Below, piece after piece: positions 1,987 to 15,304 of a stretch of 33,061 bases of DNA. Origin of the DNA: a virus; IMG/VR virus record IMGVR_UViG_3300044629_000549, positions 1-33,061 of that record; one strand, given 5' to 3'. A program made the position numbers and the translations under genes. The notes beneath the pieces are model-generated. The model was given only the letters and a program-made list of their open reading frames with translations, had not been told where the DNA came from and ran no database searches. Numbering within the stretch: position 1 is the stretch's first letter; every line of letters starts with the position of its first letter.

Positions 1987-2488
1987 CACCTTCCCCCGCT
2001 CCCCCCGCGACTTCTACCCGACGCCGTATGAGGCGGTGGTGCCGCTGCTGCCTCATCTCGTCGAGCGCACATTCTTCCACGAACCGTGCTGCGGCAACGG
2101 GCAACTCATTGGGCATCTTGAGGCGCATGGGCACCGCTGCCTGGGATCGTCGGACATCGAGCCTCACCCGTGCGTCGGGTTCAAGCAAGACGCCATGACG
2201 CTGACCCACTGCATCGGCACCATGTTCATCACAAACCCTCCATGGGCGTGGTCGATCCTCAACCCGATGATCACCCACCTGTCAACCCTGGCACCGACTT
2301 GGCTGCTGCTGAATGCTGATCAAATGCACAACAAGCGCATGGGTCCGCACCTCAAGCGTTGCACCAAGATTGTCAGCATCGGTCGCGTCAAGTGGATGCC
2401 CGACAGCACTTCGACCGGCATGGAGAACTCCGCGTGGTTCCTGTTCGATCAGAACCACGATGGTCCGACTGTGTTTGTGGGTCGTTGA
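1973..2488 (+). CDS. SAM-dependent DNA methyltransferase
   Basis: The 171-aa protein opens with RDFYPTPYEAV, an N-terminal signature of small phage DNA methyltransferases. It continues with HEPCCGNGQ (about residues 36-44), the SAM-binding motif I, and NPPW at residues 88-91, the catalytic motif IV of N6-adenine or N4-cytosine enzymes. The order (motif I before motif IV) fits a compact gamma/epsilon-type layout with no visible target recognition domain. The ATG at 1973 is chosen; the ATG at 1961 in the same frame would add four residues. It overlaps the preceding small gene and ends at the -35 of a candidate promoter. The likely job is protecting phage DNA from host restriction or marking it. 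Sequence specificity cannot be read from the sequence. Confidence 0.83.
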   Translation: MGKRSTFPRSPRDFYPTPYEAVVPLLPHLVERTFFHEPCCGNGQLIGHLEAHGHRCLGSSDIEPHPCVGFKQDAMTLTHCIGTMFITNPPWAWSILNPMITHLSTLAPTWLLLNADQMHNKRMGPHLKRCTKIVSIGRVKWMPDSTSTGMENSAWFLFDQNHDGPTVFVGR

Positions 2489-2514
2489 CAAGCAGGTGTG
2501 GCTGCGCATATCTT
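2485..2514 (+). promoter_or_regulatory. Putative promoter of the helicase operon
   Basis: TTGACA at 2485-2490 overlaps the stop codon of the methyltransferase gene, and TATCTT at 2509-2514 follows after 18 nt. A start site near 2521 would give a leader of about 112 nt before the ATG at 2633, which coincides with the folded region described next. Motif-based only. Confidence 0.45.
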
Positions 2515-2522
2515 TGCTTCGT

Positions 2523-2632
2523 GGGTTTGACGACCCGAGAGCACCTCATAGCAGGGCATACGGTGGTTTCTTCGGAAACACCGGTTACTCCCCGGTCGTC
2601 AACGCCGTATGTCCCGCTATGAGGTGCTTCAA
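2523..2632 (+). promoter_or_regulatory. Structured 5' leader with 24-position inverted repeat and pseudoknot
   Basis: Bases 2540-2563 pair with 2605-2628: 22 Watson-Crick pairs, one G-U (2556/2612) and one A/C mismatch (2553/2615). Inside this stem lie a GTTTC-TTCG-GAAAC hairpin (2566-2579), which is the very stable C(UUCG)G tetraloop, and a CCGG/CCGG hairpin (2581-2595). Upstream, GGGT/ACCC (2523-2526/2533-2536) forms a small hairpin. Its loop and 3' arm, TTGACGACC (2527-2535), are exactly complementary to GGTCGTCAA (2594-2602), and this pairing crosses the long stem as a pseudoknot. The 3' arm contains GAGGTG (2621-2626), the ribosome binding site of the gene at 2633, so the folded RNA would hide it. 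No uridine run follows, which argues for translational control rather than termination. A DNA role such as an origin is an alternative. Confidence 0.68.
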
Positions 2633-2815
2633 ATGAGCAAAACCCCTCCTCCCAATTACAAAGTCGCTAAGTGTTGCGGATCGTGCAAGCATTGGAACAT
2701 CGACGCTGAGACATCACTGGGTGATGGTATGTGCCGCAAGCACCCCCGTGGCGATGGCGACTTCGTGGTCGAGTTCATCAACCACATCTGCGACAACTGG
2801 GAAATTTTCGAGTGA
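2633..2815 (+). CDS. Small cysteine-rich (CxxC) protein, leader gene of the helicase operon
   Basis: This 60-aa protein has CCGSCKHW near the N-terminus, then a cysteine in GMCRKHP and a last one in HICDNW, giving C-x2-C-x2-W ... C ... C. It shares this layout with the product of 1792-1986, so the two are probably distant paralogues of a zinc-binding fold. The ATG at 2633 has GAGGTG seven bases upstream, and that site is buried in the 3' arm of the leader stem. The stop TGA overlaps the GTG start of the helicase (GTGA), so helicase translation is probably coupled to this gene. No function is known to me. Confidence 0.75.
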   Translation: MSKTPPPNYKVAKCCGSCKHWNIDAETSLGDGMCRKHPRGDGDFVVEFINHICDNWEIFE

Positions 2816-5520
2816 CCATCCCAACGCTTCGCCCGTACCAGCGCGACCTGTACGACCGCGTGCATCAATCGTGGAACCAGGGTGCTCGTAACACCATGGT
2901 CGTACTGAGCACCGGATTGGGAAAGACCGTGCTGCTCTCTCAGGTCATCAAGGACCACCAGGGGCTGTCCTGCGTTATGGCGCATCGTCAGGAACTGGTG
3001 AGCCAGTTGAGCATGTCGCTCGCCCGGTTCGAGGTGATGCACCGGATCATCGCACCGAAGAACGTGATCGCCAGCATCGTGCGGGAGCATCAGATCGAGT
3101 TCGGGCGCACCTATTACAACGCCAACGCCCCGGCAGCCGTGGCTGGTGTGAACACCCTCGTCTCCCGCCAGGATGCACTCTCACGATGGGCGCAACAGGT
3201 GACGCTCTGGGTAGGAGATGAAATCCATCACTACCTGAAGAAAAACCTATTCGGCACGGCGGCGAGTATGTTCCCCCACGCCCGTGGTCTCGGCGTGACC
3301 GCCACACCGCAACGAGCGGATGGTAAGGGCTTGGGTGCTCACAGTGACGGTCTGTTTCACGTCATGCTCGAAGGTCCGCCGATGAGCGCAGCCATGCAAA
3401 TGGGCAATCTATGCCGCTACCGCATCGTAGCGCCGCCCGGTGACTTTGACGCTGACCACATCAAGATCACAGCGAGCGGTGACTTCAGCGGCAAGGAGAT
3501 GCGTGAGGCGGCGCGGAAGTCCCACATCGTCGGCGATGTGGTCGAGCATTATTTGCGGTTCGCGGCGGGCAAGACGGGTATCACGTTCGCCACGGACGTG
3601 GAGACCGCCAATGAGATTGCCGAGCAATATCGACAGGCTGGTGTGCCGTGTCAGGCCGTGAGCGCCGAGACACCGGAGCATGTGCGCAATGACTTCGTGC
3701 GCCGCTTCAAACGGGGCGATCTGCTGCAACTGGTCAATGTCGATCTGTTCGGTGAAGGCTTCGATCTGCCCAATCTCGAAGTGGTCAGTATGGCGCGTCC
3801 CACCATGTCTCTAGCTGTCTACATGCAGCAATGCCTTGACTCAGAAACCGAGGTGTTGACCAACAGGGGGTGGGTAGGTCGTCAGGACATTCGTTATGAC
3901 GATATGGTCGCTGCTGTCGATGTTGTAGATATGTCAGCACATTGGTGTGGGGTTGAGGGAATTGTAGACAGGGAGATTGATCAAAGCGAGAGGATGTTCT
4001 CGATCAAATCGCCCCATCTTGATATTCGTGTTACAGGCGGTCACGATATGATCGTTAAAGGGATATCAGGTACATGTATCAAGTGGCATAAACAGATCGC
4101 CGCAGATGTTGCCTGTCGTAAAGGCATGTTCCGTGTCCCTATTTCGGCAGAACTTCAAATCCCCGATGCCGATATCTCTGATAATGATCTCAGAGTGATT
4201 GGGTGGTTTCTATCCGATGGTGTCGTGAATAAGAGAACAAATGCTCTTATGATTTCCCAGGCATCTCATAAGAAATCACACTGCAATTCAATACGCAGTG
4301 TTCTCAGATCTGCCAACTTCCGAGTTGGTGAATGTACGATTCGTCGTACTGGTGATCTTGCCAAGTACGAACCGTTGTTGATGTTTTCGGTGTCGCACGG
4401 AAATCCTCGCAAGGTCGTGGATCGACACATGACCGGTTGGGCGAGACTTGAGAAATGGTTCGACAAGAGTCTGCCTGGAATATACGACACTTTAAGCGCA
4501 CGCCAACTCGGTGTAATGCTTGAAACTCTAAACCTCGGCGACGGAGTGAATAACCACAAGGGCTGTCGTTGGAACCGTCAGACAATGACAATCACCTGCG
4601 GTGATAATAAGGTGATGGCTGAAAGGCTCCAAGCACTGCTTGTCGTCAGAGGGTTCAAGTGCAATCTAGCTACTCAACATTATCCCGGCAGGAATCGTTG
4701 GTACATTCTTCACATTAAGAAATCGTCCACAGCAACAATTGCTGGGATCGGTGTGTCAGATGGTAACATCGGCGATAAGACTTATGTCAGATCAAGGTTC
4801 TCTAGTGTTGAACACACTCCAGGCGAACGGGTCTGGTGTGTGACAAATCGACTGGGAACATTAATCACCCGCCGCAATGGTAAGGTCTCGATCTTGGGTA
4901 ACTGCGGTCGCGCCCTTCGCCCCTCGCCCGGTAAGGACCGTGCGCTGATCATCGACCATGTGGGGAACGTGAAGCGGCACGGTCTGCCCGACATTCCCCG
5001 ACGTTGGACCCTGGACGCCAGGGAGAAGCGCAGCAGCAAGGCGGCTGACCCTGATGTGATTCCGCTGACCACATGCCTGTCGTGCTACGAGGTCTATGAG
5101 CGAATCAAGGCAGCCTGCCCCCATTGTGGTTACAAGCATCAGCCCGACGCCCGTCGCCGCCCGGATCAGGTCGATGGTGATCTGGCGATGCTCGACGACG
5201 ACGTGCTCGAGGCATTGCGCCAAGCAGCGATTCAAGCGATGGAGACCCCCGAGAGCATGGCTGATCGCGTCGGGTTCGTCGCTGGTCCTATTGCTGGCAG
5301 AGGTGCCGCCAATCGCCAGCGCGAAAAGATCGAAGCGCAACTGGCTTTGCGGGAGACAATTGCTCTTTGGGCAGGTCAACAACGGTCACTCAACCGTCCC
5401 GATGAGGAGAGTTACCGCAGGTTCTTCTTGACATTCGGAATTGACGTACTTTCGGCCCAAGCTCTGGGTCGCAATGAAGCTGAAAAATTGACTGTTGACA
5501 TCCAAAAAGCCCTCGGATAG
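2812..5520 (+). CDS. SF2 DNA helicase interrupted by an intein
   Basis: The 902-aa precursor starts at GTG 2812, overlapping the previous stop; the conserved RPYQRDL (Q-motif-like) begins at residue 6, so the longer open frame upstream is not used. N-extein motifs are STGLGKT (K38, Walker A), DEIH (136-139, Walker B), TATP (about 163-166) and GEGFDLP (from 314). Motif VI would read QQCGRALR, but it is split after QQ by a 357-residue intein (residues 341-697). The C-extein (698-902) carries C755-x2-C758-x10-C769-x2-C772, a probable zinc finger. The spliced protein would be 545 aa, an ATP-driven duplex-unwinding enzyme of the RAD25/XPB or DEAD-like phage type. Because motif VI is needed for ATP hydrolysis, the precursor should be inactive until splicing. 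The operon continues with the hypothetical gene at 5554. Confidence 0.93.
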   Translation: MTIPTLRPYQRDLYDRVHQSWNQGARNTMVVLSTGLGKTVLLSQVIKDHQGLSCVMAHRQELVSQLSMSLARFEVMHRIIAPKNVIASIVREHQIEFGRTYYNANAPAAVAGVNTLVSRQDALSRWAQQVTLWVGDEIHHYLKKNLFGTAASMFPHARGLGVTATPQRADGKGLGAHSDGLFHVMLEGPPMSAAMQMGNLCRYRIVAPPGDFDADHIKITASGDFSGKEMREAARKSHIVGDVVEHYLRFAAGKTGITFATDVETANEIAEQYRQAGVPCQAVSAETPEHVRNDFVRRFKRGDLLQLVNVDLFGEGFDLPNLEVVSMARPTMSLAVYMQQCLDSETEVLTNRGWVGRQDIRYDDMVAAVDVVDMSAHWCGVEGIVDREIDQSERMFSIKSPHLDIRVTGGHDMIVKGISGTCIKWHKQIAADVACRKGMFRVPISAELQIPDADISDNDLRVIGWFLSDGVVNKRTNALMISQASHKKSHCNSIRSVLRSANFRVGECTIRRTGDLAKYEPLLMFSVSHGNPRKVVDRHMTGWARLEKWFDKSLPGIYDTLSARQLGVMLETLNLGDGVNNHKGCRWNRQTMTITCGDNKVMAERLQALLVVRGFKCNLATQHYPGRNRWYILHIKKSSTATIAGIGVSDGNIGDKTYVRSRFSSVEHTPGERVWCVTNRLGTLITRRNGKVSILGNCGRALRPSPGKDRALIIDHVGNVKRHGLPDIPRRWTLDAREKRSSKAADPDVIPLTTCLSCYEVYERIKAACPHCGYKHQPDARRRPDQVDGDLAMLDDDVLEALRQAAIQAMETPESMADRVGFVAGPIAGRGAANRQREKIEAQLALRETIALWAGQQRSLNRPDEESYRRFFLTFGIDVLSAQALGRNEAEKLTVDIQKALG
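3832..4902 (+). mobile_element. Intein with LAGLIDADG (DOD) homing endonuclease domain
   Basis: The element starts at Cys (CLDSETEVLTNRGW, splicing block A) and ends at Asn before Cys of the C-extein. Block B is T68-G-G-H71. The C-terminal blocks read VWCVTN and RRNGKVSILGN. Two LAGLIDADG-like helices are present: VIGWFLSDG with D129 and MLETLNLGDG with D237, the usual acidic pair about 108 residues apart. The penultimate residue is Gly rather than the common His. Sampled 60-base blocks are 42-50% GC inside the intein and 62-63% in the exteins, a sign of separate origin. Insertion sits inside helicase motif VI. Splicing chemistry residues (Cys1, block-B His, terminal Asn, Cys+1) are intact, so it should splice; endonuclease activity is inferred from the two acidic residues. 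Confidence 0.93.
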
Positions 5521-14646: not shown

Positions 14647-15304
14647 CTGCCTGATTAAGCGGCTGCGCACGTTCGGGCACGAGGGCTTTCCGATTGCGTA
14701 TGAAGCCGCCGCCGCCCTGGAGGCCAAGGACAAGCGCATCTCAGAGTTGGAGGCGTCTGCCGAGAAGGCCGCAGCGGCTATCAGAGCCGCGCTGGATGGG
14801 CGTCTTGCCCTTTCCGCAGAGCGCATCGCGGAGTTGGAGGTTGAGGCTGTAGAGCGCGACCGCGCCTATATCGTATATGCAAGCGGCTATCGTGACCGCG
14901 CCGAGAAGGCCGAAGCTACTCTCGAAAGTTTGAAGAATACCCATCTCGACGAGCGGACGAAGGTGGTCGAGAAATTTCGGCGTGACGAAGCCGACCTCGC
15001 CGCCGCACGGGCTTGTATCAGTCACGCCGTCCCAATAATCAAGTGGGCGCTACCAGAAGCCACATATTGGGCAGAGCACCACGCCCCCGCCATCGCAGCG
15101 GCGCGGGGCGAGAAGTCTAGCGATGTTCCTGTCGAGAAGCGGCTTGGCCAACCCACCGGGTCGGGACATGGGGTGGCACGGGGCGAGCAGCCCGAGTCCG
15201 ACGTGTGCCCGACGTGCGATGGCGTGGGCTGGGTAGAAGTCAAGGTTGACGGAGGCGTGCAATGCCCCGACTGCAGCGGCACCGGCAGGAAGGAGACGAA
15301 GTGA
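14639..15304 (+). CDS. Coiled-coil accessory protein, copy 2, with DnaJ-type zinc motif
   Basis: The 221-aa protein opens MTDCLIKRLRTF and repeats blocks of copy 1 (ERIAELE, AEKAEA, EADLAAARA, PAIAAARGE). Its C-terminal end differs: CPTCDGVGWVEV then QCPDCSGTG, two C-x2-C-x-G-x-G motifs as in DnaJ-type zinc-binding folds. The central stretch is a long coiled coil. This is a duplication of the upstream gene with an exchanged tail. It overlaps the next ATG by 1 nt. The role is unknown. Confidence 0.7.
   Translation: MTDCLIKRLRTFGHEGFPIAYEAAAALEAKDKRISELEASAEKAAAAIRAALDGRLALSAERIAELEVEAVERDRAYIVYASGYRDRAEKAEATLESLKNTHLDERTKVVEKFRRDEADLAAARACISHAVPIIKWALPEATYWAEHHAPAIAAARGEKSSDVPVEKRLGQPTGSGHGVARGEQPESDVCPTCDGVGWVEVKVDGGVQCPDCSGTGRKETK

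Follow-up and report, generated by a model that had tools for sequence, protein, structure and literature searches.

What is the large structured element in front of the helicase operon of this virus, and does it act as an RNA on the genes that follow it? The window analyzed here is a virus record of 33,061 bases, and the leader in question lies at positions 2489–2632. An earlier note, prepared from the letters alone, had described it as a pseudoknotted RNA structure burying the ribosome binding site (RBS) of the operon, and had proposed either a translational switch under ligand or protein control or a replication origin.

Fold of the leader

The 152-nt leader is predicted to fold on the plus strand with a free energy of −73.7 kcal/mol and a z-score of −7.0, equaled by none of 200 shuffled sequences; the minus strand folds less well (z −5.7). 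It is the top plus-strand fold of the 33-kb record and its strongest 120-nt window for strand and for GC content. The main stem (2540–2563/2605–2628) consists of 22 Watson-Crick pairs, one G-U pair (2556–2612) and one mismatch (2553–2615), exactly as had been described, and flanking pairs at 2539–2629 (G-U), 2564–2604 (G-U) and 2565–2603 lengthen it to 26 pairs. The stem score of 44.5 compares with 27 for the runner-up in the window and with maxima of 26.5–32 in six shuffled windows. Both hairpins reported inside the stem, C(UUCG)G and CCGG, are present in the fold, and the 9-nt complementarity between TTGACGACC (2527–2535) and GGTCGTCAA (2594–2602) is exact; it arises in approximately 0.4% of shuffles of both segments. 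The fold and stem statistics thus bear out the view that these pairings exceed chance. An intrinsic terminator or attenuator (GC stem with U run) is absent from the leader, and related phage and genome DNA totaling approximately 2.1 Mb yielded no second long stem over a Shine-Dalgarno (SD) sequence.

Transcription would proceed from a promoter-like element at 2485–2514 (plus strand, as are all features of the leader and operon given below), which has the form TTGACA-18-TATCTT with 10 of 12 consensus matches, a predicted start near 2521, and an end at 2514 in agreement with the earlier description. The consensus scan yielded five promoter-like sites in the region against 2.2 expected, so a single site is not significant by itself.

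Similarity to C4 antisense RNA

The earlier note knew of no described RNA class with this layout. That statement does not hold, since the C4 antisense RNA (RF01695) matches the leader over the full model. An Rfam scan of the window at the gathering threshold gave no match; when the short stretch was searched permissively, RF01695 aligned end to end (model positions 1–87 of 87) with 2544–2619 at 40.7 bits, which falls short of the curated cut-off of 45 bits. In the record, the match has an E-value of 3.2e-8, a quantity that depends on Rfam's model. The miRNA families in the permissive list scored far under their own cut-offs and were set aside as hairpin look-alikes. In RF01695 surveys of 369 and 385 genomes (754 altogether), nearly every match exceeded 45 bits, and the scarcity of lower matches indicates that a 40-bit background is rare. 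No match to RF01695 was found in 48 related phage records at an E-value of 0.01.

The C4-like core contains the closing stem (2549–2565/2603–2619), the P2 and P3 hairpins and the conserved junction sequence of C4. It resembles the C4 RNAs of P1 and P7 in its three-helix layout, the UUCG loop of P2, the CCGG hairpin of P3 (2580–2596) and the GUCAAC junction, in which the a' sequence lies. The UUCG loop, an RNA-type feature, is present in 16 of 36 C4 family members. A sequence motif built from 36 C4 RNAs gave the window a score of 13.9, compared with a mean of −21.3 for 20,000 random versions in which the pairing was kept, none of which reached this value. Our own C4 alignment yielded a covariance model whose consensus structure was poor (17 pairs), and this model was left unused. 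We call the leader a C4-derived variant rather than a C4 member, because its score lies below the curated cut-off and several defining features of the family are missing. A further sub-threshold C4-like RNA of 37.8 bits was observed at L285 (G050:C55:210800-210881, minus strand), and the same assembly has helicase-relative contigs.

Complementarity of a1 and a'

The annotated target sites of C4 in P1 lie upstream (a1/b1) and downstream (a2/b2) of the RNA, and a1 and a2, both TTGACAG, pair with CTGTCAA of C4. The a'-type antisense sequence of the window (2594–2602), formed by the 3' side of P3 and the junction, aligns with this P1 a' sequence and with the C4 family junction CGGTCTGTCAACC. Among 38 other C4 loci, an upstream a' complement of at least 7 nt is present in 82%, compared with 7% of mismatched pairs, and a downstream a' complement in 82%, compared with 6%; b' complements are found upstream in 66% and downstream in 84% of C4 loci. 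The upstream a' complement of the window, at 2527–2535, is 9 nt long, a length attained by no mismatched pair, and constitutes an a1-type site. It is located 8 nt from the C4 core, whereas 49–128 nt is usual in C4 loci.

The 9-nt strand that had been assigned to a pseudoknot is better read as C4 a1/a' complementarity, that is, as a competing helix. There is no support for a static pseudoknot in which this helix and the full stem exist side by side; from the geometry, the two could hardly form together, because the linkers of 4 nt (2536–2539) and 2 nt (2603–2604) face a stem of 24 bp. When folding of the growing transcript was predicted with a nested model, which scores the two helices as alternatives only, pairing of the 9-nt helix was approximately 1.0 for 3' ends at 2602–2612 and 0 once the 3' arm had been made, with the closing stem formed from 2616 onward. 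Competition between the a1 helix and the stem is thus probable while the RNA is being transcribed; the helix may be a relic, or it may delay or prevent stem closure.

Departures from C4 and a possible trans action

Sites corresponding to a2, b1 and b2 were not found in the window, where the longest complements are 4 nt each. The GG of the C4 RNase P site is replaced by AG (TGG is present in 34 of 40 loci), and the CCACC-like 3' tail of C4 is missing, with CGCTATG in its place. The closing stem extends 10 bp further outward, over the SD; extra pairs are absent from 38 of 39 other loci, and the remaining one has four. The distance from the core to the start of the open reading frame (ORF) is 14 nt, compared with approximately 45–58 nt for clear downstream ORFs in the C4 family. 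The downstream genes identified in that family are of the AntA, pRha, Bro-N and GemA types, and the effector, which is an antirepressor in P1 and P7, is a helicase in the window.

In P1, C4 undergoes RNase P cleavage and prevents translation of icd/ant in trans (PMC5320573, PMC12197685, PMC8198154). A working trans-acting C4 could likewise be released from the leader and silence an mRNA of this phage, of its host or of a phage that competes with it, as in P1/P7 immunity, in which case the overlap with the RBS would be incidental. The core, a' and a1 are all in place for such a role, and the P1/P7 RNA provides the precedent (PMC5320573, PMC12197685). We nevertheless consider it unlikely: the absence of the target sites and of RNase P-type ends makes classic trans action less likely, the closing stem runs beyond the usual processing point, and the loop-pairing candidates in the window are weak, with none above the 1% background level. 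The sequence TTGACGGAGG (15243–15262), directly before a start at 15262, is a potential pairing partner of the C4-like a' sequence; the match may be due to chance. The C4-like sRNAs of Acinetobacter baumannii also represent reuse of the C4 core outside P1/P7; unlike the leader, they are processed, have GGW ends and have no stem RBS described (PMC5320573).

Predicted sequestration of the ribosome binding site

The SD sequence GAGGTG (2621–2626), the RBS for the start at 2633, lies in the 3' arm of the outward stem extension (2620–2628), whose 5' arm (2540–2548) contains the anti-SD sequence GCACCTC. The predicted cost of opening the SD of the first ORF is 21.9 kcal/mol, the highest among 31 starts, and falls to a normal level of 6.7 kcal/mol for RNAs whose 5' end lies at 2550 or beyond. 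These predicted costs support the proposed burial of the helicase-operon RBS, and the SD is held in a helix as in T4-type leaders. An alternative in-frame start, an ATG at 2609, has no SD.

The first ORF (2633–2815) encodes a Cys-rich protein of 60 residues; its coding score of 0.25 bits per codon is within the range of phage genes, and no Pfam or PHROG family was found for it. It overlaps by GTGA with the gene for a ResIII/RadD-like helicase (2812–5520; Pfam PF04851 and PF00271), which is followed by exonuclease, single-strand-binding and polymerase genes. The helicase contains an intein-like insert at approximately 3832–4902, where its relatives are continuous. The first residue of this insert is Cys, a GN end precedes a Cys, and the GC3 of 0.48 is below that of the flanking gene. 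The small Cys-rich ORFs at 1793–1987 and 2633–2815 are each the first gene behind a promoter-like element.

Burial of the RBS, and its release in RNAs that start at or after 2550, would also be expected of a strong sequestering hairpin that is unrelated to C4 and merely resembles it, with translation from internal starts or after RNase III cleavage. Duplexes of more than 22 bp suit RNase III, and the stem length fits. The T4 e, soc, 49 and I-TevI leaders are a precedent, with an SD held in a helix that requires the 5' arm to be present in the RNA (PMC3014915). In contrast to these leaders (PMC3014915), the window has no promoter found in the 5' arm, a far longer stem, and C4-type sequence together with an a1 site. 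A sigma70-like promoter inside the stem is absent by consensus scan, the late-promoter sequence TATAAATA is absent from 2489–2632 by direct reading, and these two approaches revealed no T4-type late promoter within the 5' arm. As the sequence match to C4 goes beyond structure and is accompanied by the a1 site, an unrelated hairpin seems quite unlikely.

A leader peptide was rejected: coding scores of the open frames range from −0.16 to −0.41 bits per codon, compared with 0.38 for genes, and no convincing relative of a 46-aa leader frame was found. The IncI-alpha and IncL/M rep leaders require a translated leader peptide, whereas the leader of the window has no coding signal. These rep leaders resemble the window in placing the RBS of a replication gene under competing helices; their activating pseudoknots are cited in PMC10724649.

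Relatives of the leader and readings without C4

A search of IMG/VR found no close relatives of the leader, so the extended stem is represented by one example without covariation. No homologous leader emerged from scans based on the 60-aa ORF, on the helicase or on the exonuclease alone, an arm-pattern search of IMG/VR gave no match, and DNA searches of phages and plasmids returned chance matches only. Relatives of the methyltransferase are not syntenic with the window, and helicase relatives at 50–58% identity lack both the Cys-rich ORF and the leader hairpin.

A DNA element without an RNA role (a replication origin, operator or cruciform) would suit the proximity to the start of the replication operon and the strong folding of the DNA strand, and inverted TTGAC repeats do occur upstream of the helicase in relatives. 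In 53 of 96 helicase relatives, but in none of 98 control stretches, TTGAC faces GTCAA 34–39 nt apart at this location. With −10 hexamers in both directions, these elements (L083–L178, e.g. L097, L121, L151 and L178) are interlocked divergent promoters, which are different from the leader structure, and the window has no such element. The RNA family match, the UUCG loop and the stronger fold of the transcribed strand all argue for an RNA, nothing positive was found for the replication origin suggested earlier, and a DNA element is very improbable. Two related phages have long inverted repeats of 34 and 17 bp (L020, 1967–2086, and L113, 416–473, respectively) with promoter-like TTGACA in the arms.

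The buried RBS and the competing helices would also suit a new class of ligand-controlled riboswitch containing a stable pseudoknot, but such a riboswitch is very improbable given the match to a known class, the absence of a conserved aptamer in relatives and pseudoknot linkers too short for the full stem. An HDV-like ribozyme topology was rejected, as P4 and J4/2 are absent and no Rfam match was found.

A proposed cis-acting lock derived from C4

Of the translational switch proposed earlier, translational control in cis is retained as the best reading, and ligand control has no positive evidence. The leader is probably a divergent derivative of a phage C4 RNA that has been fused to the downstream gene as a cis-acting translational lock for the small ORF and the helicase; the data suggest that a normally trans-acting RNA has been turned into a lock on its own message. 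In P1 and P7, the order is promoter, a1/b1, C4, a2/b2 over the RBS, icd and ant with a 4-nt overlap, and C4 is excised and binds a2/b2 in trans. The window has the P1 arrangement of promoter (here a promoter-like element), a1-type site, C4-like RNA, small ORF and effector gene, here the helicase, with its 4-nt overlap; a2/b2 are absent and would have been lost if the leader descends from C4. The stem is extended outward by 10 bp such that GCACCUC of the 5' arm pairs with the SD in GAGGUGC. Through this pairing, the full leader would be poorly translated in cis, with the small ORF locked directly and the helicase by translational coupling.

During transcription, the a1 helix (2527–2535/2594–2602) would form first and would then be displaced by the closing stem. 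A 26-bp lock of such strength should be hard to open; the RBS would be exposed if the a1 helix were held or if the 5' arm lost its first 10 nt, and candidates for opening the lock in the cell are cleavage by an RNase, an RNA acting in trans, or a protein that keeps the a1 helix in place. A more elaborate version of the cis-acting lock, which we advance only tentatively and regard as doubtful, is that a phage antisense RNA which formerly acted in trans now forms a self-contained switch in cis, in which a1/a' and the extended stem are mutually exclusive and the order of folding, or a factor holding a1, sets translation of the helicase operon.

Among antisense RNAs, C4 is a textbook case from phage immunity, and in several of the loci examined the downstream genes are of antirepressor type (AntA, pRha, Bro-N). 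If the cis-acting lock is real, a C4 relative that has merged with an RBS and guards a replication helicase would demonstrate how an antisense RNA that acts in trans can become a cis-acting leader, and would provide a compact test system for folding competition during transcription. The finding also suggests that sub-threshold relatives of C4 have gone unnoticed in the leaders of other phages.
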